Below are positions 7,290-20,965 of a DNA stretch of 25,011 bases, in pieces. A program made the translations under genes and the position numbers. Numbering within the stretch: position 1 is the stretch's first letter; each line of letters starts with the position of its first letter. This stretch comes from Bacillota bacterium (GTDB lineage: Bacteria > Bacillota_A > Clostridia > Peptostreptococcales > Anaerovoracaceae): NCBI GenBank assembly GCA_017457585.1, contig JAFTHD010000013.1:1-25011 (forward strand). The letters run 5' to 3'. The notes beneath the pieces are model-generated. The model was not told the DNA's origin. It did no database searches and worked only from the letters and a program-made list of their open reading frames with translations.

Positions 7290-7330
7290 TGAATTCGGTA
7301 GCGTGAGGCAGGGGTGACCGGCGGCGTCTG

Positions 7331-7370
7331 AAGCTTTTGAAACTTTTTTTCAAAAAAGTTTCAAAAGTTT
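7331..7370 (+). terminator. AT-rich palindrome after serS, probable terminator
   Basis: A perfect 16-bp inverted repeat (7334-7349 with 7352-7367) extends by a G-T and two A-T pairs to about 19 bp, with only TC between the arms. Each arm is mostly A and T. It lies 45 bases after serS and ends one base before the -35 box at 7372. It can act as a bidirectional intrinsic terminator; its position also allows a role in the next promoter. Confidence 0.55.
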
Positions 7371-7371
7371 G

Positions 7372-7400
7372 TTGACACTAACCAGGGGTTGTGGTAGTAT
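7372..7400 (+). promoter_or_regulatory. strong sigma-A promoter for the candidate small RNA
   Basis: A perfect -35 box TTGACA (7372-7377), 17-base spacer and -10 box TAGTAT (7395-7400). Predicted start of transcription is about 7407. No start codon with a ribosome site follows; instead there is structured sequence and a terminator. Confidence 0.75.
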
Positions 7401-7409
7401 GTGAGTGGA

Positions 7410-7425
7410 GTTAGTTAACCCTAAC
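7410..7425 (+). promoter_or_regulatory. operator dyad GTTAG-N6-CTAAC at the small-RNA start
   Basis: GTTAG TTAACC CTAAC lies directly on the predicted start site of the 7372 promoter, the place where a repressor blocks initiation. It shares its arms and spacing with the sites at 13214, 13808, 13842 and 16017. The arms resemble DtxR/IdeR-type iron boxes; the regulator itself is not visible here. Confidence 0.65.
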
Positions 7426-7589
7426 CTCCTTTGTGAAACTATTTTACTCATACAAAACCTTACCTCATTTCCGCCTATTGGGGAAATCCCGCGGGCGCAT
7501 CTTATGAGAGGTGCGTCCGCTGATATAGGCATCACGACACTGAACTTTACAATTTTTATTGTGATATTAAACGACAAATATACTTCCTG

Positions 7590-7620
7590 AAAAAAGCAGA
7601 GCGTTCGGCTCTGCTTTTTT
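7590..7620 (+). terminator. intrinsic terminator of the small RNA
   Basis: A 7-bp GC-rich stem (7596-7602 with 7608-7614) with loop GTTCG, preceded by six A and followed by six T, so the pairing can extend to 13 bp. A textbook intrinsic terminator. Confidence 0.88.
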
Positions 7621-7823
7621 CATGGGTTAAGTTAAGGTTAAAAAAATATCAAAGCATGGTAATTATATGAGTTTTGTGGTATGCTTACTCTGTCTGAGCA
7701 TGCGTTCAGGCTAATTGCATTTCAAATGAAATGAAGTAATCTCTTGAAGGAAATGCTAAAGTAGTTATTTGGGTCTGCACATCTGTTTCGGTGTAGATTC
7801 AAAGTGAAAGGAAGGTTTTGACA
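7621..7823 (+). other. untranslated leader region of the rnf operon
   Basis: About 200 bases between the small-RNA terminator and rnfC with no supported gene. Contents: GTTAA-type direct repeats at 7626-7640 that do not form the regulon dyad; an ATTTCA-AA-TGAAAT inverted repeat at 7719-7732; and a 7-bp hairpin (7773-7779 with 7790-7796, one G-T pair) shortly before the ribosome site. TTGCAT (7715-7720) and TAATCT (7737-7742), 16 apart, are a weak promoter candidate. I see no confident promoter for rnf, although one is expected here. Confidence 0.4.
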
Positions 7824-9149
7824 ATGGGCCAGAAACACCTGAATAGCGTTAAAGTAAGTCACGAGAAGCACACTTCCGGCTGCGCGACTGAAATAATGGC
7901 TATCCCGGAAACTGTCTGTATCTCAATGTCACAGCACATCGGCGCACCTTGTAAGCCTCTCGTTAAGAAGGGAGACCAGGTCAAGGTAGGCCAGCTAATC
8001 GGAGATACGGATGCTTTCGTGAGTGCCCCGATCCATTCAAGCGTGTCAGGAACCGTTAAGCAGATCAAGACCATGAGAAATGTCATGGGCGGATACGATC
8101 AGATGATCGAGATCGAGACGGACGGCAAGCAGGAAGTTTCGGAGGACGTTAAACCACCTGAAATCAACAGCTTTGAGGATTTCATCGCTGCCATCAGAGC
8201 AAGCGGAGTTGTAGGACTCGGTGGTGCATCATTCCCTACACACATCAAGTTAAATCCTAAGAATCTTGACGAATGTCACGATCTCATCGTCAACGCAGCA
8301 GAATGTGAACCGTTTATCACTTCTGACCACAGACTCATGCTGGAGAACGCAGATTCGATCATCGACGGCGTACTGGCAATCATGAAGTGGTTAAACCTGG
8401 ACAAGGGTCACATCGGCGTCGAGGAGAACAAGCCGGATGCTATCGAAAGCCTGAGAAAGGAGATAGCAGACAGAGGTCATTCGGGAGACGTAGAAGTTCA
8501 CGTTCTGAGAGCAAGGTACCCACAGGGCGCTGAGCGTGTCATGATTTACGAGATTCTCGGCAAGACTATGAATGCAGGCGAGCTGCCTGCACAGCACGGA
8601 GTTATCCTCTCCAACGTTACTACGATCGCGTTCATAGGGCAGCACCTGAAGACCGGAAGACCGCTCACAACGAAGAGAGTGACCGTTGACGGAAGTGCTG
8701 TTGCAGAGCCGAAGAACATCATCGTTCCGATCGGTGCTGCTATCGCAGATGTTATCGAAGCCTGCGGCGGGTACAAGGCAGAGCCTAAGAAGATACTCAT
8801 GGGCGGACCTATGATGGGAAGAGCCATCTACTCAGATGAGCAGCCTATCGTAAAGAACAACAATGCGATCCTGGCATTCTCATTCGAGGGTGACGCTAAG
8901 CGATTTGACATTCAGGAAGAGACAGCATGTATCAAGTGCGGCAGATGCCACGGTGCATGTCCGTTCAACCTCCTGCCTGTAGCCATCGCTTCAGCTTACG
9001 ACCAGAGAGACGCCGGCAAACTTGACGCACTTAAGGTAATGCAGTGCATGGAATGCGGAAGCTGTTCCTACATTTGCCCTGCGAGAAGACCACTGAGCTT
9101 TATCAATAAGATGGCAAAGGGTGTTGTAAAGGAGGCGCAGAGTAAGTAA
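7824..9149 (+). CDS. rnfC: Rnf complex subunit C (NADH-side, Fe-S/FMN protein)
   Basis: Peripheral cytoplasmic subunit of the Rnf ferredoxin:NAD+ oxidoreductase, the part that docks NAD(H). It has 441 residues. The N-terminal third contains the lipoyl-like fold seen in RnfC (GDQVKVGQLIGDTDAFVSAP, about 50-69). The middle has the Gly-rich NAD/FMN region (VVGLGGASFPTHIK and AAECEPFITSDHRLM). The C-terminal part carries two [4Fe-4S] motifs, CIKCGRCHGACP from residue 369 and CMECGSCSYICP from residue 408. ATG 7824 is chosen over TTG 7818 because GAAAGGAAGG (7807-7815) stands at normal distance. It is the first gene of a six-gene operon, and its stop codon overlaps the rnfD start (TAATG). Confidence 0.96.
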   Translation: MGQKHLNSVKVSHEKHTSGCATEIMAIPETVCISMSQHIGAPCKPLVKKGDQVKVGQLIGDTDAFVSAPIHSSVSGTVKQIKTMRNVMGGYDQMIEIETDGKQEVSEDVKPPEINSFEDFIAAIRASGVVGLGGASFPTHIKLNPKNLDECHDLIVNAAECEPFITSDHRLMLENADSIIDGVLAIMKWLNLDKGHIGVEENKPDAIESLRKEIADRGHSGDVEVHVLRARYPQGAERVMIYEILGKTMNAGELPAQHGVILSNVTTIAFIGQHLKTGRPLTTKRVTVDGSAVAEPKNIIVPIGAAIADVIEACGGYKAEPKKILMGGPMMGRAIYSDEQPIVKNNNAILAFSFEGDAKRFDIQEETACIKCGRCHGACPFNLLPVAIASAYDQRDAGKLDALKVMQCMECGSCSYICPARRPLSFINKMAKGVVKEAQSK

Positions 9150-10174
9150 TGGCGAATAAATATCACGGAAACCTGGTTGTGTCTTCATCACCACATATGG
9201 TCTCACCTACAGACACAACTAAGATAATGGGAACTGTTATGCTGGCCCTCCTGCCTGCACTGGCTGTCGGCGTATATCAGTTCGGACTGAGAGCGCTTGT
9301 ACTCACATGCGTATGCGTGATAGCAAGCGTAGGATTTGAATATCTTTACAATCTCTTAATGAAGAGACCACAGACAGTAGGCGATCTTTCGGCAGCTCTT
9401 ACAGGACTTCTCATAGCCCTCAACTGCCCGTCAAGCCTGCCGTTTACAATTACAATCGTAGGTTGCTTCGCAGCAGTGATCGTTGTTAAGCAGCTCTTCG
9501 GCGGTCTGGGACAGAACATTGTAAACCCTGCAGTAACTGCCAGAGTATTCATGTTCATCGCATTTGCAACAGAGATGACAAGCTGGCCTGTATCGAGAAT
9601 TTCTCACGTTACAGAGGCACTGAATCCTGTTGATCCTGAGATGCCGGATGCAATCACAGCCGCTACAGCTCTCGGACAGCTTGGACACGGCGACGGAACA
9701 CTCGCTTCCGTTGAGTACTCCAACCTGGATCTTTTCCTCGGAAACACAGGCGGATGTATCGGCGAAATCAGTGCACTGGCTCTGATTATCGGTGGAGCAT
9801 TCCTCATCTGGAGAAAGATCATATCACCAATCATTCCGCTCACATTCATCGGAACAGTATTCCTGCTGGGACTGATCTGGGGCGGATTTGACGGAGCGAT
9901 CTTCCACATCTGTGCAGGCGGCGTAATGCTCGGTGCATTCTTCTGCGCTACAGACTACGTTACTTCACCTACACTTCCGATGGGTAAGGTAATCTTCGGT
10001 ATCGGATGTGGTATATTCACGATGCTCATAAGAATCTTCGGTTCTTATCCTGAAGGCGTATCCTTTGCAATCCTGCTCATGAACATCCTCACTCCGTTCA
10101 TCGACAGATTCTGCGAAGGAAGAGCATTCCCACTTCCAAAGGCAGCGAAAGGAGGCGACGGTGATGGAAAATAA
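9149..10174 (+). CDS. rnfD: Rnf complex subunit D (membrane flavoprotein)
   Basis: Integral membrane subunit related to NqrB that carries covalently bound FMN and takes part in ion translocation. It has 341 residues with about eight to ten hydrophobic segments. The N-terminus has SSSPHMVSPTDTTKIMG, typical of RnfD, where the SPH block precedes the first helix. NCPSSLPFTITIVG and QNIVNPAVTARVF are family blocks. The sequence ATDYVTSPTLPMGK (about residues 267-280) is where the family's FMN-bearing Thr motif is expected. It begins inside the rnfC stop codon and overlaps rnfG by 11 bases, indicating translational coupling. Confidence 0.96.
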   Translation: MANKYHGNLVVSSSPHMVSPTDTTKIMGTVMLALLPALAVGVYQFGLRALVLTCVCVIASVGFEYLYNLLMKRPQTVGDLSAALTGLLIALNCPSSLPFTITIVGCFAAVIVVKQLFGGLGQNIVNPAVTARVFMFIAFATEMTSWPVSRISHVTEALNPVDPEMPDAITAATALGQLGHGDGTLASVEYSNLDLFLGNTGGCIGEISALALIIGGAFLIWRKIISPIIPLTFIGTVFLLGLIWGGFDGAIFHICAGGVMLGAFFCATDYVTSPTLPMGKVIFGIGCGIFTMLIRIFGSYPEGVSFAILLMNILTPFIDRFCEGRAFPLPKAAKGGDGDGK

Positions 10175-10715
10175 CAAGTTCAAAGAAAACTTCATTCCTG
10201 CTATCGTGCTGCTTTGCATCTGTCTCTGTGCTACTTTGGCACTGGCTGCAACACATGCAGTAACACAGCCTCTCATCGACGCAAACGCTGAGAAGGCTGC
10301 TAACGAAGCAAGAGCACTTGTACTTCCTGAAGGCGACGGCTTCACAGAATACGACGGAAGCCTTCTTGAGGGAGTTGATGACTGCTACATCGCTAACAAC
10401 GGCGTAGGCATGGCTGTGACTTCACATTACAAAGGATTCGGCGGTGACGTTAAGGTTATGACAGGTATCGACGCGAACGGTCAGATTACAGGCGTAACGG
10501 TAACGGAACACTCCGAGACTCCGGGACTTGGTACCAAGGACATGACGCCTGAATACCTGGCACAGTACAGTGGAGTTTCAGAAGCACCGGAAGCCAGCAT
10601 CAGCGATGATGCTAACATCGACGCAGTTACAGGAGCCACGATCTCCGCTAATGCGATCTACAATTCCGTTGGCGAAGCACTGGCGCAGTTTGAAAGTTGC
10701 GGAGGTGTGAAATAA
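10164..10715 (+). CDS. rnfG: Rnf complex subunit G (covalent FMN subunit)
   Basis: Rnf subunit anchored by one N-terminal membrane segment (about residues 10-33), with an extracytoplasmic FMN_bind domain. The flavinylation motif TGAT is at residues 156-159 (DAVTGATISA), with Thr159 as the expected site of phosphoester-linked FMN attached by an ApbE-type transferase. No apbE gene is in the window. It has 183 residues, normal for RnfG. ATG 10164 is preferred over GTG 10161 because GGAGG at 10151-10155 is then eight bases away. The start lies inside rnfD and the stop overlaps the rnfE start. Confidence 0.95.
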   Translation: MENNKFKENFIPAIVLLCICLCATLALAATHAVTQPLIDANAEKAANEARALVLPEGDGFTEYDGSLLEGVDDCYIANNGVGMAVTSHYKGFGGDVKVMTGIDANGQITGVTVTEHSETPGLGTKDMTPEYLAQYSGVSEAPEASISDDANIDAVTGATISANAIYNSVGEALAQFESCGGVK

Positions 10716-11413
10716 TGGATAACAAGACAAGCAAATTAACAGTATTCACAAAGGGCCTCATCAAAGAGAACCCGGTTCTGGTACTGCTCCTGGGATGCTG
10801 TCCTACACTGGCTGTAACGACCAGTGCGGTCAACGGACTGGGCATGGGCGTATCGACGATGGCCGTTCTCGTTTGTGCAAATATCGTAATCTCACTTTTG
10901 AGAAACATCATTCCTGATAAAGTAAGAATCCCTTGCTACATCGTAGTAATCGCAGCGTTCGTAACCATCGTTCAGTTCGCACTGAAGGCATATCTGCCTG
11001 CACTGGACAAGGCGCTCGGACTGTTCATCCCGCTGATCGTAGTAAACTGCATCATCCTGGGTAGAGCTGAGATGTTCGCTTCAAAGAACGGCGTATTCGA
11101 TTCACTGCTCGATGGTCTCGGCATGGGCGTAGGTTTCACATGGGCTCTCGGCCTCATGGGTCTCATCAGAGAATTCCTGGGAAGCGGTACTGCATTCGGT
11201 ATCGACATCCTGGCACACCTCGGATGGACGCCTGCCGGAATCTTCATGCTGGCTCCGGGCGGATTCTTCATCTTCGGTATCCTGATTGCAGGTGTAAACT
11301 TCTTCTCCAAGGACGGAGCAAAGAAGGAATTCAGCTGTGAAGGCTGTATGTTTGCAGGAAACTGCAACCCTGAAGCAGGAGAAGGCTGTGACGGAAAGGA
11401 GGCTAAAGCATAA
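10715..11413 (+). CDS. rnfE: Rnf complex subunit E (membrane subunit)
   Basis: Integral membrane subunit related to NqrD. RnfA and RnfE together form the inverted-topology pair at the core of the ion and electron path. It has 232 residues and six hydrophobic segments. Family blocks include ENPVLVLLLGCCPTLAVTTS (about residues 18-37) and PLIVVNCIILGRAEMFA. The Cys in these two blocks match the membrane-buried Fe-S ligands known for this family. The start is ATG 10715, overlapping the rnfG stop with GGAGG nine bases upstream; the in-frame ATG at 10697 is in the wrong place relative to that site. Unusual feature: a soluble C-terminal tail with four Cys (C208, C211, C217, C225). Confidence 0.95.
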   Translation: MDNKTSKLTVFTKGLIKENPVLVLLLGCCPTLAVTTSAVNGLGMGVSTMAVLVCANIVISLLRNIIPDKVRIPCYIVVIAAFVTIVQFALKAYLPALDKALGLFIPLIVVNCIILGRAEMFASKNGVFDSLLDGLGMGVGFTWALGLMGLIREFLGSGTAFGIDILAHLGWTPAGIFMLAPGGFFIFGILIAGVNFFSKDGAKKEFSCEGCMFAGNCNPEAGEGCDGKEAKA

Positions 11414-12006
11414 TGACTGGTATATTATCGATCATGCTGGCAGTTATACTGACCAACAACTATGTATTAGCTCAGTTCCTTGGTATCTGTCCGTTCCTGG
11501 GAGTATCCAAGAAACTCGATTCCGCAGTAGGTATGGGTGCAGCCGTAATCTTCGTAATGGTTCTGGCTACAGCCGTAACATGGCCTATTCAGTACTTCAT
11601 CTTAGAGAGATTTGATATCGCTTACCTGCAGACCATCGTGTTCATCCTGATCATCGCGTCGCTGGTACAGCTGGTTGAAATGACTCTTAAGAAGTACATG
11701 CCGCCTCTTTACAAGTCACTGGGCGTATTCCTCCCACTGATCACTACAAACTGTGCGGTTCTCGGTCTTACGATCAACAACATTACAGATGGATACAACT
11801 ACGTTGAGTCAATCTTCTGCTCCATCGGCGCAGGAATCGGCTTCCTCCTCGCTCTCGTACTCTTCGCAGGAATGAGAGAGAAGATGGAAAACAACAAGGG
11901 TATCCCTAAGTGCTTCCAGGGAGCACCTATAACACTCGTTGCAGCTTCCATCCTGGCAATGTCATTCATGATGTTCTCAGGTGTAGTAGACGGCATATTC
12001 GGCTAA
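11413..12006 (+). CDS. rnfA: Rnf complex subunit A (membrane subunit)
   Basis: Integral membrane subunit related to NqrE and the partner of RnfE. It has 197 residues and six hydrophobic segments. Diagnostic blocks are LTNNYVLAQFLGICPFLGVS (about 13-32) and LPLITTNCAVLGLT, each with the Cys that supplies an intramembrane Fe-S ligand. The start overlaps the rnfE stop as TAATG, with AAAGGAGG upstream. No anomalies seen. Confidence 0.97.
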   Translation: MTGILSIMLAVILTNNYVLAQFLGICPFLGVSKKLDSAVGMGAAVIFVMVLATAVTWPIQYFILERFDIAYLQTIVFILIIASLVQLVEMTLKKYMPPLYKSLGVFLPLITTNCAVLGLTINNITDGYNYVESIFCSIGAGIGFLLALVLFAGMREKMENNKGIPKCFQGAPITLVAASILAMSFMMFSGVVDGIFG

Positions 12007-12021
12007 GAAGGAGGGAGACGT

Positions 12022-13098
12022 ATGAGTGCAATAATACTGCCTGCTATCATCGTAGCAGTGATTGGTCTTATCGCAGGTGTTATCCTGACGATAGCCGCAA
12101 AGCTTATGTTCGTTCCTGTAAACGAGAAGGTTGCCCTCGTTCAGGAGGCTATGCCGGGCGCTAACTGCGGTGCCTGCGGTTTCCCTGGGTGCGACGGATA
12201 TGCGACTTCTCTCGGAGAAGGCGAAACGGACGATATTACAAGATGTCCTGTAGGCGGAGCAGCTCTTCAGGCTGCACTGTCAGAGATTCTGGGACTTGAA
12301 GGTGGCTCAGCAGAACCTGAAACAGCAATGGTAATGTGTAAGGGTCACTACGGCGTTACGAATGAGATCATGCAGGATTCAAGAATCCACACATGCTCTG
12401 AAGCCAAGATGTTCTACGGCGGCCAGTGGGCTTGCAAGTACGGATGTCTTGGTCTGGGTGACTGCGTAAGCTCATGTCAGTTTAACGCCATCGGAATCGT
12501 AAACGGTGTTGCATGGGTGGACAGAGAGAACTGCGTAGGCTGTAAAGCTTGTGCTGTTGCTTGTCCTCAGAACATCATCGACATGGTTCCAAAGAAGAGC
12601 ATGGTATTCGTAACCTGTAAGTCAACTGACAAGGGTGCCGTTGCAAGAAAGGCCTGCCAGGCTGCTTGTATCGGATGTATGAAGTGTCAGAAGGCTTGTA
12701 AGTTCGACGCCATTACAGTTGAGAACTTCCTGGCTCACATAGATCCTGTTAAGTGTAAGAACTGCGGACTCTGTGTTAAGGAATGTCCTACTGAGGCGAT
12801 TATCAACCTTAGGAAGAAAAAGACGCCTGCTAAGCCAAAGATGACGCCTGAGCAGATCGAAGCTGCGAAGGCAGCGGCTGCTGCAAAGAAGGCGGCTGCC
12901 GCTGAGGCTAAGGCCGAAGCGCCGAAGGAAATCGAGGCGAAAGCCGAAGCACCAAAGGAAATCGAGGCGAAAGCCGACGCGCCAAAGGAAGTCGAGGCTC
13001 CGAAGGCTGACGCGCCAAAGGAAGTTGAAGCTCCAAAGGCCGACGCTCCGAAGGAAGTTGAAGCTCCAAAGGCCGACGCAGAAGCAAAGGCTGAATAA
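12022..13098 (+). CDS. rnfB: Rnf complex subunit B (ferredoxin-accepting Fe-S protein)
   Basis: Entry point for electrons from reduced ferredoxin. One N-terminal membrane helix (about residues 4-28) is followed by the RnfB-type [4Fe-4S] motif CGACGFPGC (C49, C52, C57) with a fourth Cys near C75. Further Cys-rich blocks follow: [47 protein letters not shown] and [16 protein letters not shown]. This is a multi-cluster clostridial-type RnfB rather than the short proteobacterial form. From about residue 275 the protein becomes a Lys/Ala/Glu/Pro tail, with in-register repeats from residue 295 (listed separately). It has 358 residues, last gene of the operon, 15 bases after rnfA, with a strong GAAGGAGGG ribosome site; a terminator follows. 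Confidence 0.96.
12904..13092 (+). repeat. tandem repeat encoding the RnfB C-terminal tail
   Basis: Six in-frame units of 30, 30, 30, 33, 33 and a partial unit. The three 30-base units start at 12904, 12934 and 12964 and encode variants of [10 protein letters not shown]. The 33-base units start at 12994 and 13027 and encode [11 protein letters not shown]. The last unit starts at 13060 and is degenerate. Neighbouring units differ mostly at third positions, so the array expanded by duplication while keeping the reading frame. Confidence 0.9.
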
Positions 13099-13125
13099 TC
13101 TTCAAGAGATCATTTAAAATAGACG

Positions 13126-13160
13126 CTGCTGCATCCACTACGGGTGCAGCAGTTCTTTCT
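13126..13160 (+). terminator. intrinsic terminator of the rnf operon
   Basis: An 11-pair stem (13126-13136 with 13142-13152, one T-G pair) and loop ACTAC, followed by TTCTTTCT. It starts 27 bases after the rnfB stop. Confidence 0.85.
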
Positions 13161-13180
13161 GACGATAGTCAAAGTCCATA

Positions 13181-13209
13181 TTGCGACAATTTCATTTGAG
13201 GAGTATAAT
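13181..13209 (+). promoter_or_regulatory. promoter of the DUF4418 gene
   Basis: TTGCGA (13181-13186), 17-base spacer and a perfect -10 box TATAAT (13204-13209). The predicted start is about 13216, inside the following operator. It lies just after the rnf terminator, so the DUF4418 gene is a separate unit. Confidence 0.72.
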
Positions 13210-13213
13210 ACCG

Positions 13214-13229
13214 GTTAGAGAAAACTAAC
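13214..13229 (+). promoter_or_regulatory. operator dyad GTTAG-N6-CTAAC upstream of the DUF4418 gene
   Basis: GTTAG AGAAAA CTAAC begins five bases after the -10 box and covers the predicted start site. The arms and spacing match the other four sites; the six central bases differ, which suggests the arms are what is recognised. Confidence 0.65.
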
Positions 13230-13255
13230 TATAAATTACATCATGGGAGGACAAC

Positions 13256-13726
13256 ATGGTAATCAACAGGATTTCAGGTGTACTGACTATAATCATGGGA
13301 GCACTCATGGCGATAGGCCCGCTCACCTTTGCACACGTATGCAACGACATGAGCGGATCCGTTCCGGCATGCCATGAGACAAGGACGACAGCAATCATAC
13401 TCGGACTCATCATCGTAATTCTCGGACTTGCGCTTTGCTTGTTCAAGAGCAGAATCGCAGGGAAGATATTTCCGATTCTTTTCATAATTGCAGGAATTGC
13501 GGGCGTACTGGTTCCGACGGTCATCGCGCCTGTTTGCAAGATGAAGGACATGCATTGTCACATGTACACGCTGCCATTCCTCATTGCAGACAGCCTTTTG
13601 CTCATAGGAATTTCGGCAATCTTCGCACTCATTGCGTTTAAGAGAAAGCCGAAGGTTCAGGCAGAAGCCGTTGCAGCAGTCGAAGCGGCTGAAGTGATTG
13701 AACATACAGACGGGAAGTCGGAATAA
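13256..13726 (+). CDS. DUF4418 family small membrane protein
   Basis: A 156-residue protein with four hydrophobic segments (about residues 5-27, 45-63, 70-92 and 105-128) and a short hydrophilic Ala/Glu-rich tail. It matches my memory of the DUF4418 family, whose members often sit near FtsX-type ABC transporters in Clostridia; function is not established. Two Cys/His groups lie at membrane boundaries: C29 with C39-H40 (VPACHETRTTA), and C94 with H100-C101-H102 (PVCKMKDMHCHMYTLP). Such pairs could bind a metal or heme, or form disulfides. It has its own promoter with the shared operator, supporting a role in the same iron response as the FTR1 system downstream. Ribosome site GGGAGG precedes ATG 13256. 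Confidence 0.7.
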   Translation: MVINRISGVLTIIMGALMAIGPLTFAHVCNDMSGSVPACHETRTTAIILGLIIVILGLALCLFKSRIAGKIFPILFIIAGIAGVLVPTVIAPVCKMKDMHCHMYTLPFLIADSLLLIGISAIFALIAFKRKPKVQAEAVAAVEAAEVIEHTDGKSE

Positions 13727-13734
13727 TTCCATCT

Positions 13735-13752
13735 GTTTATTTGTAAATAAAC
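13735..13752 (+). other. AT-rich palindrome after the DUF4418 gene
   Basis: GTTTATTT-GT-AAATAAAC, a perfect 8-bp dyad with a 2-base centre, nine bases after the stop codon. It lacks a T run, so it is at best a weak terminator and possibly a transcript-end hairpin. Confidence 0.4.
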
Positions 13753-13753
13753 C

Positions 13754-13798
13754 GTCAAGTTAATACTTGACAACGGGAAAAAAGAGGCATAATATAAT
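13754..13798 (+). promoter_or_regulatory. promoter of the FTR1-P19 unit with a dyad over the -35 box
   Basis: TTGACA (13767-13772) with TAATAT (13790-13795) at 17 bases; TATAAT (13793-13798) overlaps at 20 bases. The -35 box is part of a perfect dyad, GTCAAGT-TAAT-ACTTGAC (13754-13771). Two GTTAG-N6-CTAAC sites lie downstream. Confidence 0.6.
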
Positions 13799-13807
13799 CA
13801 AGTAAGC

Positions 13808-13823
13808 GTTAGTTTCGGCTAAC
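13808..13823 (+). promoter_or_regulatory. first operator dyad upstream of the FTR1 gene
   Basis: GTTAG TTTCGG CTAAC lies just after the predicted start site of the 13767 promoter. Same arms and spacing as the other regulon sites. Confidence 0.62.
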
Positions 13824-13841
13824 CTTATTTTTTGTATACGG

Positions 13842-13857
13842 GTTAGTTATCACTAAC
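13842..13857 (+). promoter_or_regulatory. second operator dyad upstream of the FTR1 gene
   Basis: GTTAG TTATCA CTAAC begins 34 bases after the first site, in the FTR1 leader and about 30 bases before the start codon. The 34-base offset is near three helical turns, so two bound dimers could lie on about the same face of the DNA. It shares GTTAGTTA with the sites at 7410 and 16017. Confidence 0.62.
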
Positions 13858-13888
13858 AACTAAATTTACTAACGCTAAGAGGAGAGTT

Positions 13889-15190
13889 ATGGAAGTATTA
13901 AAGAGATCATTCGCGGTACTGTGCATGATTCTCGTGCTTATATGCACACCGGTTTTCTCCTTCGCAGATCAGTCCGGTGAATACTACAAGACATGGGAAG
14001 AATACTACACAGCAAATAATCTGGACGCGAGGAACTGGCATGAAGTTGCGGATGCCATCGATGTAATCATCGATCACGCAGTTGAACTTTATGAACAGGG
14101 AGATTCGGCTGAAGCATATGAGTATGCGAAGGCAACTTACTGGGGTTACTACGAGACGACAGGTTTTGAGCGTAACACCATGACCTATATTTCGGGCAGA
14201 GTCGGAGCCGTTGAGCTTCAGTTTACGGCATTCCGAAAAGCTATAAAAAAGGATGAAGGTGCTGATAAGGCAAAGGAAGAAGGGGCGAAGCTGAGCTCCA
14301 TGCTTCATGAGGACGCAGAGATACTCCAGCCGGGCGGCGCAACATCAGACGCTGGTGCTGGCGGTACAGTAGCTGTATTCCTGGGAAGCCTTACCATCAT
14401 ACTGAGGGAAGGACTTGAAGCGATCCTCATCGTCGGCGCTATCGCAGCCTACCTGAGGAAGTCCGGAAATCTTCAGGGGCTTAAGCCTGTATACGGCGGT
14501 GCGATTATTGCCGTTGCATGCAGTTTCGCTATGGCAGCCCTCTTAAGCTACATCAAGAACCAGAATGCAGAGGCAGCAATGTCTCAGGAAATCATAGAAG
14601 GTATCGCAGCACTTACGGCGGTAGCCGTTCTCTTCTACGTAAGTAACTGGATGGTATCCAAGTCAGAGGCGGCCGTTTGGAGCTCCTACATCGAAAAGCA
14701 GGTGGAAAGCTCCGTAACGAAGGGAAGCATCTTCGCCCTGGCATTCACCTCCTGGCTTGCAGTATTCAGAGAAGGTGCGGAAGTGATTCTCTTCTATCAG
14801 CCACTCATGCAGGAGAGCAGTGCAAAGGCTGTATGGGGCGGATTCATCCTCGGATGCGTGCTTCTCGTAGGCGTATGGATCCTCATCCACTTCGTCAGCG
14901 TCAAGCTGCCGCTTAAGCCGTTCTTCATGGCAAGTAGTATCCTGATGGCAGTTATGTCCATCTGCTTCCTGGGCGCAGGAATCAAGGAACTCATCGAAGG
15001 TGGTGTAATCAACGCTTCATACCACGACTGGTTCCCGATCAACGATACGCTGGATATGCTGGGTCTGTACCCACTCTATGAGACGCTTATCCCGCAGGCA
15101 ATACTTCTGGTTATTACGATCATCACATTCGTAATCTGGATCAGAAGGAACAACCGTATTGCAAAGGAAGCTGCTACAAAAGCAGCGTAA
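13889..15190 (+). CDS. FTR1 family iron permease
   Basis: High-affinity iron permease of the FTR1/FetM/EfeU family, in the cell membrane. A signal peptide (about residues 1-27) is followed by a helical extracytoplasmic domain of about 130 residues and seven hydrophobic segments (from about residue 160 to the end). The two diagnostic iron-binding motifs REXXE are REGLE (residues 173-177) and REGAE (residues 294-298), both in membrane helices. It has 433 residues. In Campylobacter (Cj1658) and uropathogenic E. coli (FetM) the homologue works with a P19-type protein, and the next gene here is P19-like. AGGAGAG precedes ATG 13889. Upstream are one promoter and two copies of the regulon dyad, supporting iron-repressed expression. 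Confidence 0.93.
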   Translation: MEVLKRSFAVLCMILVLICTPVFSFADQSGEYYKTWEEYYTANNLDARNWHEVADAIDVIIDHAVELYEQGDSAEAYEYAKATYWGYYETTGFERNTMTYISGRVGAVELQFTAFRKAIKKDEGADKAKEEGAKLSSMLHEDAEILQPGGATSDAGAGGTVAVFLGSLTIILREGLEAILIVGAIAAYLRKSGNLQGLKPVYGGAIIAVACSFAMAALLSYIKNQNAEAAMSQEIIEGIAALTAVAVLFYVSNWMVSKSEAAVWSSYIEKQVESSVTKGSIFALAFTSWLAVFREGAEVILFYQPLMQESSAKAVWGGFILGCVLLVGVWILIHFVSVKLPLKPFFMASSILMAVMSICFLGAGIKELIEGGVINASYHDWFPINDTLDMLGLYPLYETLIPQAILLVITIITFVIWIRRNNRIAKEAATKAA

Positions 15191-15201
15191 ATAGGACCCT
15201 G

Positions 15202-15218
15202 ACTGCATTTGCAGTTTT
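15202..15218 (+). other. small hairpin between the FTR1 and P19 genes
   Basis: ACTGCA-TT-TGCAGT followed by TTT, 12 bases after the FTR1 stop. It is too short to be a confident terminator; it could reduce read-through or protect the upstream message, so that P19 and permease amounts differ. Confidence 0.35.
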
Positions 15219-15275
15219 GGATAAAAGTGACACAACAATATTTACAATGATGGTTTTGAAAGGAGAAAAACTCAA

Positions 15276-15908
15276 ATGATGAAGAAATTATTAGTGTTAC
15301 TCATGTCACTGACAATGGTATTCGCATTCGTAGGATGCGGAAGCAGCTCATCTGACGATCAGGCAGCAGCTGATGATCAGGCAGCAGTAGAAGATGAAGC
15401 AGTAGCAGAAGACGATGCAGCAGCAGACGACGCCGGCTTCACAGAAATCCCTATCTTCGAAGACGAAGAAGTTGGATTCATGAACGTATCAGGCGTTTAC
15501 TTCCAGCCTGTACCAATGTCAGACGGAACTAAGGCAGAGGATTATGACATCCACCTGGAGTGCGACGTAGCAGCTCTGGAGAACAACTTCGGTTATGAGC
15601 TGGGTTCATGGATTCCTTACCTGACAATCGACTACAGCGTAGTTACTGAAGACGGTACTGAAGCAGCAGCAGGTACTTTCATGGAAATGGCAGCATCAGA
15701 TGGCCCTCACTACGGTGCTAACATCAAGCTTCCGGATGCAGGAACTTATGAACTGACTTTCACAATCCACAGCCCTGCTGACAACGATTACCTGATCCAC
15801 ACTGACTCACTGACAGGCCCTGGAGCTCAGTCATTCGACGAAGCATTCCCTGATGGCGTTCTGAAGGTTACTCAGACTTGGAACTACGAAGGCCCTGTAA
15901 CAGTTTAA
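15276..15908 (+). CDS. P19/FetP-type iron transport lipoprotein
   Basis: Extracytoplasmic partner of the FTR1 permease, homologous to Campylobacter P19 (Cj1659) and FetP, which bind copper and iron as a dimer. Here it is a lipoprotein: the signal sequence ends in VFAFVGC with Cys21 as the lipid site, as expected for a cell with no outer membrane. Residues 22-54 are a low-complexity Ser, Asp, Glu, Ala and Gln linker. The P19 domain then shows GVYFQPVPM, DYDIHLECDVAALENN (His93), GSWIPYLTIDYSV and GPHYGANIKLPDAGTYEL. Met138 and His145 are seven apart, as are Met88 and His95 of the Campylobacter copper site, and His93 is 45 before Met138 (46 in Campylobacter). It has 210 residues. ATG 15276 or ATG 15279 are both possible; AAAGGAG is upstream. 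A terminator follows. Confidence 0.9.
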   Translation: MMKKLLVLLMSLTMVFAFVGCGSSSSDDQAAADDQAAVEDEAVAEDDAAADDAGFTEIPIFEDEEVGFMNVSGVYFQPVPMSDGTKAEDYDIHLECDVAALENNFGYELGSWIPYLTIDYSVVTEDGTEAAAGTFMEMAASDGPHYGANIKLPDAGTYELTFTIHSPADNDYLIHTDSLTGPGAQSFDEAFPDGVLKVTQTWNYEGPVTV

Positions 15909-15943
15909 TTGCTGACAGAGATAATCGAAACAAAAGAAATGAT

Positions 15944-15969
15944 GAGGCGGCAAATGTCGCCTCTTTTTT
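15944..15969 (+). terminator. intrinsic terminator after the P19 gene
   Basis: A 6-bp GC-rich stem (15944-15949 with 15958-15963), 8-base loop and six T. It separates FTR1-P19 from the downstream genes, which have their own promoter. Confidence 0.82.
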
Positions 15970-15980
15970 CTTTCGCGAGG

Positions 15981-16008
15981 TTGATTTTCTCAGGAGAAGT
16001 GTTAAAAT
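15981..16008 (+). promoter_or_regulatory. promoter of the DUF2318-to-fumarate-reductase run
   Basis: TTGATT (15981-15986), 16-base spacer and TAAAAT (16003-16008). The predicted start falls at about 16015-16016, at the edge of the operator that follows. It drives the long run of same-strand genes starting at 16073. Confidence 0.62.
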
Positions 16009-16015
16009 GGAATTT

Positions 16016-16036
16016 GGTTAGTTATACCTAACTAAC
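16016..16036 (+). promoter_or_regulatory. best operator dyad of the regulon, upstream of the DUF2318 gene
   Basis: The core GTTAG TTATAC CTAAC (16017-16032) extends to a perfect 8-bp dyad, GTTAGTTA-TACC-TAACTAAC (16017-16036). Its TTAG...CTAA ends and inner CTAA resemble the DtxR/IdeR box TTAGGTTAGGCTAACCTAA with small changes in spacing. It begins eight bases after the -10 box. Confidence 0.68.
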
Positions 16037-16072
16037 TTTCTAATAGAAACTATTACTTTCAAGAGGGACAAC

Positions 16073-17326
16073 ATGCTCAAATACTTAGTTTTACTGACAG
16101 AAGATCTTATTATAGCAGCGTTGCTCGTATGCATGATTTATGCCTTCATACGCTTTAACATGAAGAAAAGGGATAACCTGATTGCCCTTGGCGTAATAGG
16201 GGTATCTCTCATTGCTTCTATCGTGATGGCAATCCTGCTGAACACGACAAATAAGGTGAATATCGGCTATGTCAATCTGACCATGTTCATACTGTACATC
16301 GCGTTCTTCATTCTTTTTATTGTTTTCAACCTGACGCCGATCAGGAATAAACTCGGCATGATTTCGGAGATAGGCGTCCTGGCCTCAGGCGCAGTGATGA
16401 TATTCACACTGCTGTTTTACTCACTTCCTGACGCTTGGGCTTATCCTTACAACTTCGACCTTTCCGGGAACACCCTGTTCTCCACGGACTTCATCTACAG
16501 ATTCATAGGATGGCTGGGAGGCTTCCTGCTTTCACTGGTTGCAGGAGTTGCGGCATACAAGATTCTGAAGCATATGGAACTGAGATATCAGAAGGTATTC
16601 CTTTACGTCGTGCTGCTGATCAATGCCCTTTCATTTGCAGGCAAAGCAGTGCAGATCATGAGGACCCGTATGCTTATTCCACCATCGGATCTGACCTTCA
16701 ACATCATCAAACTGACGCTCAACTACAGCGACTATTTCATATACGCATCCATACTGGCTGTCGTTATCGCAGCTGCGATACTCATTGCAAACAGCAGGAA
16801 GGTGACGAGCCCATATGCCAACAATGCGCAGTTCAGGAAGCTTAAGGCTGCACTGCGGAACAGGAGAAGATGGTCCACATGCCTCATCGTATGTGCAATC
16901 TTTGCCATGGTAAATCTCACCGTTGTGGACGCTTACAACAACAGAGAACCGGATGAGGCGCCTGTTGAGGAATGCCAGGTCACGGATACGGACATGATCG
17001 TTCCCCTGGAGATGGTTGCTGACGGACATCTTCACCGATTCGGCTATACGACAGATGAAGGCATCCTCGTCAAGTTCATCGTGGTTCAGAAGCCGGGAAC
17101 GACGGCTTATGGAGTAGGGCTTGATGCCTGCGACATATGCGGTGACGCCGGATACTACGAGAGAGACGACGAAGTCGTATGCAAGAGATGTGACGTAGTA
17201 ATGAACAAGAACACCATAGGATTTAAGGGCGGGTGTAACCCGATCATTATCGACTACTCCGTCAAGGACGGTCAGATAATCGTTCCAATCGAGACCTTGG
17301 TAGACCATGCAAACGAGTTTAAGTAA
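16073..17326 (+). CDS. DUF2318 family membrane protein (Cj1660-like)
   Basis: Polytopic membrane protein with a C-terminal DUF2318 domain, homologous to Campylobacter Cj1660 of the P19 iron system. Eight or so hydrophobic segments fill residues 5-285. The outer domain (about 295-417) contains the family Cys/His set: HLHRFGYT, ACDICGDAGYY (from about residue 351), VVCKRCDVVMN (from about 369) and GGCNPI (about 386). This arrangement suggests a bound metal or Fe-S/redox centre, but the cofactor is unproven. It has 417 residues. It is the first gene after the 15981 promoter and its operator. The next gene starts nine bases downstream with an AAGGAGG ribosome site that overlaps this stop codon. 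Confidence 0.88.
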   Translation: MLKYLVLLTEDLIIAALLVCMIYAFIRFNMKKRDNLIALGVIGVSLIASIVMAILLNTTNKVNIGYVNLTMFILYIAFFILFIVFNLTPIRNKLGMISEIGVLASGAVMIFTLLFYSLPDAWAYPYNFDLSGNTLFSTDFIYRFIGWLGGFLLSLVAGVAAYKILKHMELRYQKVFLYVVLLINALSFAGKAVQIMRTRMLIPPSDLTFNIIKLTLNYSDYFIYASILAVVIAAAILIANSRKVTSPYANNAQFRKLKAALRNRRRWSTCLIVCAIFAMVNLTVVDAYNNREPDEAPVEECQVTDTDMIVPLEMVADGHLHRFGYTTDEGILVKFIVVQKPGTTAYGVGLDACDICGDAGYYERDDEVVCKRCDVVMNKNTIGFKGGCNPIIIDYSVKDGQIIVPIETLVDHANEFK

Positions 17327-17335
17327 GGAGGCATA

Positions 17336-18621
17336 ATGTTTTTTAGGATGGTAAAAGGTGCCCTTTTCAGACAGAAGGGCAAAATGCTCATGATCGCATT
17401 CACGATCCTGCTGGGAGCATCCCTTGCTACTGCAATGCTAAATGTTATGCTTGACGTAGGTGATAAAGTAAATCAGGAACTTAAGACTTACGGGGCCAAC
17501 ATTACAGTAGTTCCAAAGGACAACAGCGTCATCGACGACATCTACGACGTAGAAGACGATGACACGGAGATCAAGAGCTCATACCTGAAGGAAGATGAAC
17601 TGGGTAAGATCAAGACCATTTTCTGGGCCTTCAATATCGTTGACTTTGCACCGTTTATCGACACGTCGGTGGATTTTGACGGAAGCGATGTCAAGATGGT
17701 AGGCTCCTGGTTCAACCACCACCTTTCCCTTTCCACAGGCGAGGAACTGGATACAGGCGTTACCAGTCTCAGATCCTGGTGGGAAGTGACGGACGGCGAG
17801 TGGCTGGATGAGCAGAAAGACGAAAATGGCGTAATGGTAGGAACCCTCCTGGCAGATCAGAAGGGGCTCAAAGTAGGAGATACCATATCCGTAAAGGGTT
17901 CAGACGGCAAGGCAGATCTGAAGGTAGTCGGAATCTACGACTGCGGAGGAGACGAAGACCAGCAGCTCTTTACGAACGTGGATACGGTGCAGGAGCTTTC
18001 GGGAACCGACGGCATGATTTCCAGCATCGAGGTCAGCGCCCTTACGACGCCTGACAACGAGCTTGCAAGGAAGGCTGCAAAGGACCGAACTCCCTTTCCG
18101 TTGACGACTACGAGACCTGGTACTGCACGGCATACGTAAGTTCCATCTGCTATCAGATCCAGGAGGTTATCACGGATTCGGTGGCAGCACCGGTAAGACA
18201 GGTAGCAGAGTCTGAGGGAGCAATCTTAGACAAGACGCAGCTTCTCATGCTGCTCATTACGATTCTATCGCTCTTTGGATCGGCGCTCGGTATTTCAAAC
18301 CTGGTTACTGCCAGCGTGATGGAGCGTTCAGCAGAGCTGGGGCTTCTCAAGGCCATCGGAGCAAAGGACGGAGCCATATCGGCCCTCGTGCTTACGGAGA
18401 TTATGATAACAGCGCTGGTGGGAGGCATAGTCGGATACTTTGTCGGATACGGGTTCGCTCAGATCGTAGGGCATACCGTATTCGGAGACTCCATAGAGAT
18501 GAAGCTGATGGTAATCCCTATCGTAGCCGTACTCATAATCATCGTGACACTTTTGGGCAGCATCCCTGCCATCAGAACGTTGCTTAAGATGAGACCTGCA
18601 GAGGTACTCCACGGAAGATAA
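17336..18621 (+). pseudogene. FtsX-type ABC permease (Cj1661-like), interrupted by a one-base frameshift
   Basis: Homologue of the first FtsX/MacB-type permease of the P19 system. The first frame (17336-18139) encodes an N-terminal membrane helix (about 15-38) and the outer domain. After AAKD it drifts into RTPFPLTTT and stops at 18137. The continuation is in the next frame, from about 18087 (NSLSVDDYETWYCTAYVSS) through three C-terminal membrane segments (FtsX block ASVMERSAELGLLKAIGAKD) to the stop at 18619-18621. Inserting one C at 18085-18086 (GACCG to GACCCG) would join the frames and give AAKDPNSLSVDDYE, about 428 residues in all. Both halves look well conserved, so this is either a very recent mutation or an error in the sequence. 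If real, the transporter would lack its first permease. Confidence 0.85.
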
Positions 18622-18637
18622 ATAGTAGGAGCTTGAA

Positions 18638-19819
18638 ATGACGAAACGTAAAATGTATTTCAGAATGATAACTGCCTCACTGATTCGTCGCAGATCCCGA
18701 ATGTTTATAGCGCTCCTTGCTATCGCAGTTGGAGCGACCATCCTCAGCGGACTTGTGACCATCTACTACGATGTGCCAAGGCAGATGGGTGAGCAGTTCA
18801 GAAATTACGGAGCCAACATGATATTCGTTGCTTCCGCGGATTCTGAGAGACTGACAATGGACAATATAGATCAGGCGGTGGACACCATAAAGGAAGACCA
18901 GGTGGTGGGTGTCGCCCCGTACAGATACGAGACCGTTACCGTTAACGAACAGCCGGTCATCGTGGCAGGAACAGACCTTGAAGGTGCTAAGAGCACCAGC
19001 CCGTACTGGCTTGTAGACGGAGAGTGGCCGTCGGGAGAGCATCAGATTCTCGTGGGAAAGAAGACGGCGGATTTGCTCTCCGTAAAGACCGGCGATACGC
19101 TGGCCCTCACCTATTCAGAGGAAAGCATCGAGAACCCGGATCAGCCGGCGGATACGGACAGAACGGACGATGAGAACGCGACCACCATCCGGTACGATAT
19201 TACGGGAACCCTGGATACAGGCGGTAACGAAGAGGAATACATCTTCATGTCTTTAGAGGATGCAGGAACGCTCACGGCTGACAAGAATAAGATAGACATC
19301 GTGGAGCTTTCCATATCGGCCGATTCAGCGCAGCTGGAGAGCTACGTAGATTCCATATCAAAGAATGTGCCTGAGATCACGCCGAGACTCGTAAAGAGAG
19401 TGACCCAGTCGGAGACGACCGTGCTCTCGAAACTGCAGTCCCTCGTATTCCTCGTAACCTTGGTAGTACTTCTCCTCATGGCAATATGCGTTGCCACCAC
19501 GATGATGGCGGTTGTAACGGAGAGAAGAAAGGAAATCGGACTCAGAAAGGCTCTCGGAGCTTCCAATCAGAGCATTATCAGGGAGTTCATGGGTGAGGGA
19601 ATGCTCCTGGGCGGAATCGGCGGATTCATAGGCTCCCTTCTGGGATTTGCCTTCGCACAGGCTGTAAGCATGAACGTATTCAACAGCACCATCACCTTCA
19701 GACCGGCCCTCGTTCCGATTGCAATCATCGCGGCGATTATCGTAACAGGTATCGCTTGTCTCATTCCGGTAAGGAATGCAACAGAAGTTGACCCGGCACT
19801 TGTACTTAAGGGCGAATAA
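18638..19819 (+). CDS. FtsX-type ABC permease (Cj1662-like)
   Basis: Second FtsX/MacB-type permease of the iron-system ABC transporter, in the cell membrane. It has 393 residues. One N-terminal membrane helix (about 20-42) is followed by a 220-residue MacB-like extracytoplasmic domain and three C-terminal membrane segments (about 268-290, 315-340 and 350-375). The FtsX signature block is TERRKEIGLRKALGASNQSI. The gene starts 16 bases after the frameshifted permease and ends ten bases before the ATPase gene. FtsX-type pairs move no small solute in the usual way; many act as mechanotransmitters on lipoproteins or outer factors, so the cargo here is uncertain. Confidence 0.9.
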   Translation: MTKRKMYFRMITASLIRRRSRMFIALLAIAVGATILSGLVTIYYDVPRQMGEQFRNYGANMIFVASADSERLTMDNIDQAVDTIKEDQVVGVAPYRYETVTVNEQPVIVAGTDLEGAKSTSPYWLVDGEWPSGEHQILVGKKTADLLSVKTGDTLALTYSEESIENPDQPADTDRTDDENATTIRYDITGTLDTGGNEEEYIFMSLEDAGTLTADKNKIDIVELSISADSAQLESYVDSISKNVPEITPRLVKRVTQSETTVLSKLQSLVFLVTLVVLLLMAICVATTMMAVVTERRKEIGLRKALGASNQSIIREFMGEGMLLGGIGGFIGSLLGFAFAQAVSMNVFNSTITFRPALVPIAIIAAIIVTGIACLIPVRNATEVDPALVLKGE

Positions 19820-19829
19820 GGAGGATCAA

Positions 19830-20504
19830 ATGAGTTTACTTGAATTAAAGAACGTATCAAAGATATATGGAGACCTACACGCTCTTGACAACGTCAGCTT
19901 AAGCGTAGATCAGGGAGAATGGATTGCCATCATGGGACCTTCCGGTTCGGGCAAGAGTACCATGATGAATATCATAAGCTGTCTGGATAAGCCGACAAAG
20001 GGGGAGATCCTCCTGGATGGAGTAGACATCGCCAACGAGAGCTCCAGGAAGCTGACCGAGATTAGAAGGGACAAGATCGGTCTCATCTTCCAGCAGTTCC
20101 ATTTGGTAAACTACCTGACTGCGGTGGAGAACGTCATGGTAGCCCAGTACTACCACAGCATGCCGGATGAAGAAGAGGCTATGGAAGCCCTGGCAAGGGT
20201 TGGCCTTGCAGACAGGGCAAAACATCTGCCGAGCCAGCTTTCCGGTGGTGAGCAGCAGAGAGTATGTATTGCAAGAGCGCTCATCAATCATCCTGAGATC
20301 ATGCTTGCCGACGAGCCTACCGGTAACCTGGATGAGGCCAACGAGAACATCGTTCTGGATATCTTCAAACAGCTACACGATGAAGGAACGACCCTCGTTG
20401 TAGTAACCCACGACCCTGAAGTTGCGGAGGTTGCCCAGAAGACGATCGTGCTCAACTACGGCAAGATTCAGGAGATCAAGATAAACGAGAACTTTGGTAA
20501 GTAA
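19830..20504 (+). CDS. ABC transporter ATPase, MacB/LolD type (Cj1663-like)
   Basis: Cytoplasmic ATPase that drives the two FtsX-type permeases upstream. It has 224 residues with all key elements: Walker A GPSGSGKST (36-44), Q-loop FQQFHLVNY, signature LSGGEQQR, Walker B IMLADEPTGNLD and H-loop VVVTHD. The LFQQFHL and PTGNLD details are typical of the MacB/LolD/FtsE branch. ATG 19830 is chosen because AAGGAGG lies just upstream; the longer open frame from 19776 would overlap the permease gene and has no ribosome site. It completes the set matching Cj1658-Cj1663 in the same order. Confidence 0.93.
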   Translation: MSLLELKNVSKIYGDLHALDNVSLSVDQGEWIAIMGPSGSGKSTMMNIISCLDKPTKGEILLDGVDIANESSRKLTEIRRDKIGLIFQQFHLVNYLTAVENVMVAQYYHSMPDEEEAMEALARVGLADRAKHLPSQLSGGEQQRVCIARALINHPEIMLADEPTGNLDEANENIVLDIFKQLHDEGTTLVVVTHDPEVAEVAQKTIVLNYGKIQEIKINENFGK

Positions 20505-20524
20505 GATACGGGAAGGAAAAAACC

Positions 20525-20965
20525 ATGAAAATTAAGAAGATACTCATATGCATGATGGCTCTCGTGATGACGATGGCACTTCTCGCAGGATGCGGAAGCG
20601 CTTCCTATAAGGACGGAACCTTCGAAGGTCAGAGTACCGTCTACGAAGACGAAAGCGGCGAAGGCGACGGATACGGAGTTGCTACCGTTACCATAAAGGA
20701 CGGTCAGATTACCGACTGTCAGTTCCTCACCTATGAGAAGGACGGGACGCTCAAGGACGAAGACTACGGTAAGCAGAACGGCGAGATCGCAAATCAGGAT
20801 TACTACAACAAGGCGCAGAAAGCCCTTGCAGGTGCCAACGAGTATCCTAAGATGCTGATTGAATCACAGGACTATCACTCCATCGATGCGATCAGCGGAG
20901 CGACCATTTCCTACAATCAGTTTATGGAAGCTGTAGACGCTGCCTTAGCACAGGCAAAGGAATAA
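20525..20965 (+). CDS. FMN-binding domain lipoprotein
   Basis: A 146-residue extracytoplasmic lipoprotein: signal sequence with lipobox LLAGC (Cys23), then one FMN_bind domain. The flavinylation motif is SGAT at residues 124-127 (DAISGATIS), so Thr127 should carry FMN attached by an ApbE-type enzyme. Such lipoproteins carry electrons on the outer face; Listeria PplA, used in flavin-based extracellular electron transfer, has two such domains. The gene starts 20 bases after the ABC ATPase gene. Its location between an iron transporter and a fumarate-reductase-like complex suggests a one-electron carrier that could reduce iron or feed the heme subunit downstream; that link is inference. Confidence 0.88.
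   Translation: MKIKKILICMMALVMTMALLAGCGSASYKDGTFEGQSTVYEDESGEGDGYGVATVTIKDGQITDCQFLTYEKDGTLKDEDYGKQNGEIANQDYYNKAQKALAGANEYPKMLIESQDYHSIDAISGATISYNQFMEAVDAALAQAKE

Follow-up and report, generated by a model that had tools for sequence, protein, structure and literature searches.

A GTTAG-N6-CTAAC dyad shared by iron-uptake genes and a predicted small RNA gene: a probable DtxR-family iron regulon in Clostridia

The subject of this report is a palindromic sequence, GTTAG-N6-CTAAC (the dyad), in a stretch of DNA of 25,011 nucleotides (nt; the window) from contig JAFTHD010000013.1 of the Bacillota assembly GCA_017457585.1; positions refer to the forward strand, on which all the genes and features listed here are read. 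The dyad marks four transcription units. One, at 7407..7620, is a predicted free-standing non-coding RNA of ~215 nt, a small RNA (sRNA) candidate, located upstream of the rnfCDGEAB operon (7824..13098; names assigned by sequence and, for RnfC and RnfA, backed by Pfam matches in G996, a sister species). The others comprise a DUF4418 gene (13256..13726; PF14387, E 5e-22), the genes for the FTR1 iron permease (13889..15190; PF03239, E 2e-26) and the P19 Fe2+ transport protein (15276..15908; PF10634, E 1e-43), and an operon headed by the gene for an FtrD-like (DUF2318) membrane iron-sulfur (Fe-S) protein (16073..17326; PF10080, E 7e-29), followed by the FtsX/MacB-type permeases, ABC ATPase, and FMN-binding protein of the P19/FTR1 cluster (17336..20965; from open reading frames (ORFs) and Pfam). 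The regulon is real at the level of sequence, and its reading as a DtxR-type iron regulon is very probable: we put at roughly 0.87 the probability that the dyad is the operator of a DtxR-family iron repressor acting on all four units, including a trans-acting sRNA.

A pattern scan locates the exact dyad at 7410, 13214, 13808, 13842, and 16017 and nowhere else in the window. A preliminary description of this DNA had reported these five sites with a chance expectation of 0.02, and both statements hold, the expectation being 25011/4^10 = 0.024; none of 100 dinucleotide shuffles of the window contained any exact dyad. All five sites are intergenic, as claimed there, the one at 7410 overlapping only a single ORF, which is unsupported, antisense, and 75 amino acids (aa) long. 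Four of them start 5-13 bp after promoter-like hexamers, again in agreement with the earlier account, and the fifth lies in the FTR1 leader. Putative operator 1, GTTAGTTAACCCTAAC (7410..7425), follows TTGACA-17-TAGTAT with a TG before the -10 (7372..7400), and its arms are kept and its spacer changed in G996; putative operator 2, GTTAGAGAAAACTAAC (13214..13229), follows TTGCGA-17-TATAAT (13181..13209); putative operator 3a, GTTAGTTTCGGCTAAC (13808..13823), follows TTGACA-17-TAATAT (13767..13795), with 3b, GTTAGTTATCACTAAC (13842..13857), 34 bp after 3a in the leader. Putative operator 4 (16017-16032), downstream of TTGATT-16-TAAAAT with TG (15981..16008), is contained in GTTAGTTA-TACC-TAACTAAC (16017..16036), which is indeed a perfect 8-bp dyad, and GTTAGTTA is common to the sites at 7410, 13842, and 16017, as had been noticed. 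The promoter scan of 7200-16200 is overall not above shuffles (12 hits vs 10.9), and four of its 12 hits directly precede the four dyad-bearing starts. Allowing one mismatch adds two dyads to the window, at 7367 and 16021, the latter being the 16017 site in a shifted register; the former, GTTTGTTGACACTAAC (7367..7382), shares bases with the -35 element of the promoter at 7372, is identical in G996, and is possibly a second operator of the RNA promoter.

The regulon was examined in the genomes of relatives (genomes labelled G, their loci L), a sample that lies outside the window's own genome. A scan of genome contigs for FTR1 gave 17 loci, nearly all from metagenome-assembled genomes (MAGs) labelled as Clostridia groups and one labelled Flexilinea, and searches with SerS (391 genomes) and RnfC (296 genomes) gave family-level relatives with RnfC matches of up to 88%, where a previous search with RnfC, in 295 genomes, had reached no more than 55%; the 14 best RnfC matches of the 296-genome search are called here the 14 relatives. 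All 16 assessable loci have a dyad with 0-1 mismatch in the 1.7 kb preceding the FTR1 match, against a mean of 0.46 and a maximum of 2 loci in block-shuffled DNA; L015, with upstream DNA absent, was left out of this test, and L003, L007, and L017 have less than 1.7 kb upstream. Exact dyads are present in 8 of the 17 loci, and in L002, L004, L008, L009, L013, and L016 the dyads are 0.7-1.5 kb from FTR1 and precede other genes of the run. Among the 14 relatives, ten have an exact dyad in the 420 bp before FeoA and five in the 420 bp before DUF3793, each genome having a dyad before at least one of these genes and one genome before both. Counted in the window together with the loci analysed (simple ORF calling), 83 of the 91 distinct exact sites fall outside ORFs of at least 100 aa, while such ORFs cover 87% of the 691,168 bases of the loci. 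The preliminary description had named three outcomes that would count against it, and the two checked in relatives, which concern the location of the sites and their conservation, both came out in its favor.

Other neighbors of the dyad include flavodoxin (L044), DUF2325 (L048), a ZIP transporter (L051), and DUF4418 (L014). In the 714,849 bases of G996 that were examined (~55% of the genome), there are four exact dyads in three locations, namely FeoAB (two sites), the candidate RNA, and an operon of DUF6110 and a P-type ATPase; in this last (L263, 11891) the dyad precedes the DUF6110 gene and the ATPase, possibly a metal efflux pump. In G888, two dyads (L202, 4075 and 4111) precede a gene for a 948-aa protein with Shr-like haemoglobin-interacting (haem-binding) domains, and an arginase-family gene begins 119-129 bp after an exact dyad in three of the 14 relatives (L204 4059, L208 4021, L211 4028). 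Where neighboring sites are less than 200 bp apart, 12 of the 19 spacings are 27-36 bp, like that of the window pair 13808/13842. Symmetrised intergenic sites show only weak preferences beyond the ten fixed bases (T or C, then A/T). Because the sites are GTTAG-N6-CTAAC with weak flanks and do not match the classical 19-bp operator TTAGGTTAGGCTAACCTAA, the dyad is not classed as a classical IdeR box.

The most plausible regulator is a DtxR-family protein. A search for DtxR and Fur homologues, likewise proposed in the preliminary description, detects the DtxR family (PF02742) in all 14 relatives and the Fur family (PF01475) in ten; PF02742 is also found in 14 of the 17 FTR1-carrying genomes. From 21 PF02742 matches, genes in 15 loci were checked for dyads, six truncated or divergent ones being left out, and an exact dyad stands upstream of 2 of the 15 distinct DtxR genes of the FTR1 set (L016, L072) and of 2 of the 16 of the family set (L191, L193). 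In L016 the DtxR gene heads a run of DtxR, a 288-aa protein, and FTR1, and in L220, which holds the same DtxR gene as L193, DtxR is divergent from FeoAB with the dyad between them. The DtxR-type protein of G748 has 123 aa and matches MntR, IdeR, and DtxR structures, and its DACRVEH aligns with EACRWEH of IdeR, the Cys being replaced by Glu in MntR. We take the Cys of this Cys-x-x-Glu-His metal site to be the iron-type residue that distinguishes IdeR from MntR, and the metal residues of the G748 protein therefore point to iron. In L005 (7759-8678), two different DtxR-family genes stand adjacent to each other beside the FTR1 cluster.

Several observations weigh against an iron-responsive DtxR operator. 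Raw dyad counts are only about twofold above those of the pattern read backwards (43 vs 25 in the 14 relatives, which have 1-8 exact dyads each, and 41 vs 15 in nine FTR1-carrying genomes), and in some single genomes, such as G004 and G868, the backwards-read control exceeds the dyad. Part of the genome-wide matches are therefore due to chance; the number of dyads alone is weak evidence, and their position is strong evidence. For the 86 exact sites beyond the window, a gene-neighbor test with ten query families places one of these families within 420 bp of 47 sites, in two cases through weak FeoB matches only; the other 39 have none, which leaves 41 of the 86 without a clear match. In G005, with 8 dyads, several of the sites adjoin genes with no evident iron link, and no PF02742 match was obtained. 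In the family set, the 400 bp preceding 14 of the 16 DtxR genes, those of G748 and G888 included, contain no exact dyad, and no DtxR gene was found in the examined bases of G996.

Three other explanations of the dyad have to be weighed against this reading. The dyad might be bound by a Fur-family regulator (Fur, PerR, or Zur) instead; such a protein is present in ten of the 14 relatives, and precedents are available: the Campylobacter P19/FTR1 cluster follows a Fur box (PMC6083913), and Fur controls iron in C. difficile (PMC6311696). However, PF01475 was not found in G748, G888, G902, and G739, all of which have dyads before FeoA or DUF3793, with the proviso that MAG incompleteness could hide a gene, and four DtxR genes are themselves preceded by exact dyads. 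The Fur box also differs from the dyad in spacing and letters, and we regard this explanation as improbable. A DtxR-family regulator that senses manganese, of the MntR type, with a secondary link to iron, appears to be a long shot as well: the best match of the G748 protein by sequence in the PDB is an MntR (2h09), the protein is short like MntR, and a ZIP transporter follows the dyad in L051, but the targets include FeoA/FeoB, FTR1, flavodoxin, DUF3793, and the Shr-like haem protein, and the IdeR-type Cys occupies the position of the MntR Glu. Least credible is the notion that the dyads act as RNA hairpins in 5' leaders and not as DNA operators; the 7410 dyad does fold at the 5' end of the RNA, but elsewhere dyads lie between promoter hexamers (L219, by eye), in tandem, or between divergent genes (L220), and the arms are short. 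The iron regulon with DtxR/IdeR-like boxes that the preliminary description proposed is supported by the counts in relatives for FTR1 (16/16), FeoA or DUF3793 (14/14), and PF02742 (14/14).

The DtxR reading extends to a unit that the preliminary description had missed: the 7410 site is probably part not of rnf but of an independent small RNA gene terminated before rnfC. The transcript predicted from the 7372-7400 promoter would start at the 7410 dyad and end at an intrinsic terminator, AAAAAAGCAGAGC-GTTCG-GCTCTGCTTTTTT (7590..7620; -18.3 kcal/mol, G996 counterpart -14.2), well short of rnfC, which begins at 7824. Folding of the 216 nt from 7407 to 7622 gives -72.4 kcal/mol and a z-score of -7.3; the homologue in G996 has a z-score of -4.9. 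In that species SerS is 95% identical over 219 aa, RnfC is 97.5% identical, and the order serS-RNA-rnfC is the same. The 5' domain (7407-7480) shares 71 of 74 bases with G996, two of the three changes falling in the dyad spacer; of the fourfold sites, serS shares 47 of 95 and rnfC 121 of 187. In the promoter region (7363-7406), 37 of 44 bases are identical. A 12-bp hairpin (7491..7520) is kept in G996 with one pair changed on both sides, one on one side, and no pair broken, and the segment CTCATACAAAACCTTACCTCATTTCC (7447..7472), a candidate seed made up of the longest unpaired stretch of the RNA, 7447-7466, plus six nt added by choice, is identical. The candidate RNA thus appears to be conserved in sequence and structure beyond neutral expectation between the two species compared. 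Its 28-aa ATG frame lacks a start codon in G996 (alignment by eye), and with a predicted promoter, a terminator, and no conserved ORF, 7407-7620 has the makeup of a free-standing unit. The G996 bases examined yielded no gene for FTR1, DUF4418, or an FtrD-like protein, so that there the RNA stands, as far as seen, without the FTR1 island.

The candidate RNA is seen in few genomes. With a 541-base query, six of 49 genus genomes gave any match, of which only that of G996 is long, the rest being rnfC-leader or short matches; in L246 and L249 (G976 and G994), stretches of 22-38 bases match positions 7556-7597, in its 3' part (E 0.004-0.008). Among 119 family genomes (G996 not included), only 28-37-base DNA matches to it were found, four of five over the terminator, and 14 chosen genomes gave only weak short ones. 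Rfam has no gathering-level match in the window; its sub-threshold matches over 7300-7860 are mostly to miRNA or unrelated sRNA models, and the best of them, SpF25, which is antisense over the terminator and scores 34 bits vs a cut-off of 48, was rejected. No second RNA unit was recognised by eye at nine orphan dyads, several of which serve FeoA, DUF3793, or other genes.

It might also be supposed that this RNA is a mere rnf leader with an attenuator and that Rnf itself is iron-regulated, since the RNA lies upstream of rnfC in the window and G996 alike. Against this, a strong intrinsic terminator ends the RNA, and none of 17 relatives' rnfC loci has a dyad with 0-1 mismatch within 1 kb upstream, L167 and L175 holding only ~160 and ~570 bp; in L183 a one-mismatch dyad lies 1.2 kb from rnfC, inside an ORF. 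A possible rnf promoter of its own, weakly supported, follows the terminator in the form of an extended -10 like TGgTATGCT (7677..7685), which is partly kept in G996 and is matched over 10-11 bases by DNA that precedes rnfC in L171 and L173 (E 1-3.5). We consider the leader explanation unlikely, and because relatives' rnfC genes have no dyad within 1 kb upstream and the intervening RNA is terminated, Rnf is also judged unlikely to be a direct member of the regulon.

Possible targets of the candidate RNA were computed with the 26-nt segment 7447-7472 against 652 ribosome-site regions of G996, with 150 shuffled segments as control; this segment was adopted after a null result with the first 170 nt, and the Fe-S category was chosen post hoc, after the first listing. 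The ribosome site of RnfC has the lowest energy, ranking 1st of 652, and none of the 150 shuffled segments matches it at rnfC. The three lowest z-scores belong to an aconitase-family protein, NadA, and RnfC, all of which are Fe-S proteins, and such proteins make up four of the ten lowest, as compared with four of 40 random genes. In the window, the same segment against 22 ribosome sites (no shuffle control) gave RnfC, an Fe-S protein at 23672, and RnfB as the best three. Other results argue against the targeting of Fe-S genes: the first 170 nt gave no Fe-S signal at the 22 window sites, the lowest energy is not unusual in itself, as 37 of the 150 shuffled segments reach it on some gene, and a crude Fe-S motif test over the 652 genes is borderline (P 0.02 for energies, 0.17 for z-scores). 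We therefore propose only as a hypothesis that the candidate RNA has an iron-sparing action. Its specific form, in which an undescribed iron-sparing sRNA of Clostridia, repressed by DtxR through GTTAG-N6-CTAAC, would block translation of rnfC, the aconitase-family gene, and nadA under iron limitation, is tentative, and we think it somewhat more apt to be wrong than right. If it is true, an sRNA blocking rnfC, the gene for an Fe-S subunit of the Rnf respiratory complex, would couple iron supply to energy conservation.

Overall, the proposed mechanism is that a short (~125 aa) DtxR-family iron repressor of Clostridia would bind GTTAG-N6-CTAAC and, when loaded with Fe2+, occupy the start region of the four transcription units and block them; a drop in iron would release the repressor and turn the units on. 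Three of the units encode the FTR1/P19/FtrD iron-uptake machinery together with DUF4418, and the fourth would yield a structured small RNA ending at a terminator, which would probably act on the mRNAs of Fe-S proteins in trans. This arrangement resembles the DtxR/IdeR regulons of Actinobacteria, with a DtxR-family regulator carrying IdeR-like metal residues, iron-uptake targets, and palindromes containing TTAG/CTAA, but there are also differences. In the present case the putative operator is GTTAG-N6-CTAAC, copies of which often recur at 27-36 bp, and the candidate regulator, of ~125 aa, has no C-terminal SH3-like domain, which is part of the classical DtxR/IdeR proteins. The Corynebacterium consensus, by contrast, is the 19-bp TTAGGTTAGGCTAACCTAN (PMC6701010). 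A literature search, mostly of open papers, found no account of a GTTAG-N6-CTAAC operator or of a DtxR iron regulon in these Clostridia.

The uptake genes themselves resemble the P19/FTR1 (Cj1658-1663-like) clusters, with FTR1, P19, DUF2318/FtrD-like, FtsX permease, ABC ATPase, and FMN-binding genes in order, and the gene order is similar in many relatives' loci. P19 clusters with an FMN-binding gene have been described, mostly from Gram-positive bacteria (PMC8238504). Unlike the Campylobacter cluster, the present one has the dyad instead of a Fur box and an adjoining DUF4418 gene. DUF4418 genes beside FTR1 clusters are preceded by an exact dyad both in L014 (6382-7005) and in the window (13214-13726), and the sequence context suggests a role of DUF4418 in iron handling. 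The first FtsX-type permease of the window consists of two ORFs (17336-18139 and 18181-18621) where relatives have a single one (e.g., L003, 4900-6201), and this split may be either a genuine frameshift or a sequencing error. The FTR1 protein of L006 (9974-11842) has an apparent tandem duplication of its N-terminal part, and the C-terminal end of RnfB (window ~12830-13098) consists of low-complexity repeats of Ala/Lys/Pro/Glu.

The new element here is a predicted small RNA gene under the same box, kept in a sister species. Iron-sparing sRNAs include MrsI in Mycobacterium, FsrA in Bacillus, IsrR in Staphylococcus, and RyhB, and the candidate is similar to these in being a predicted non-coding RNA that is structured, ends at a terminator, and follows a putative iron-repressor box; its unpaired segment may, by computation, pair with ribosome sites of Fe-S genes. 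The MrsI promoter carries an IdeR site (PMC8628891), and IsrR has unpaired C-rich regions (PMC9410917). By analogy, the iron-sparing hypothesis fits FsrA, IsrR, and especially the IdeR-boxed MrsI. The candidate differs from the known iron-sparing sRNAs in having no gathering-level Rfam match, in its location between serS and rnfC, and in having targets that are computed only.

Finally, a specific operator sequence and a candidate regulator can be put forward for iron control in this set of mostly uncultured Clostridia, among them genomes in which no Fur-family protein was detected. The dyad would allow iron regulons to be read from metagenomes and would tie the poorly known families DUF4418 and DUF3793, and perhaps DUF6110 and DUF2325, to iron. 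In addition, iron sparing by an sRNA that a DtxR-type repressor controls, known from MrsI of mycobacteria, would with this small RNA reach a further phylum and gain a connection to the Rnf complex.

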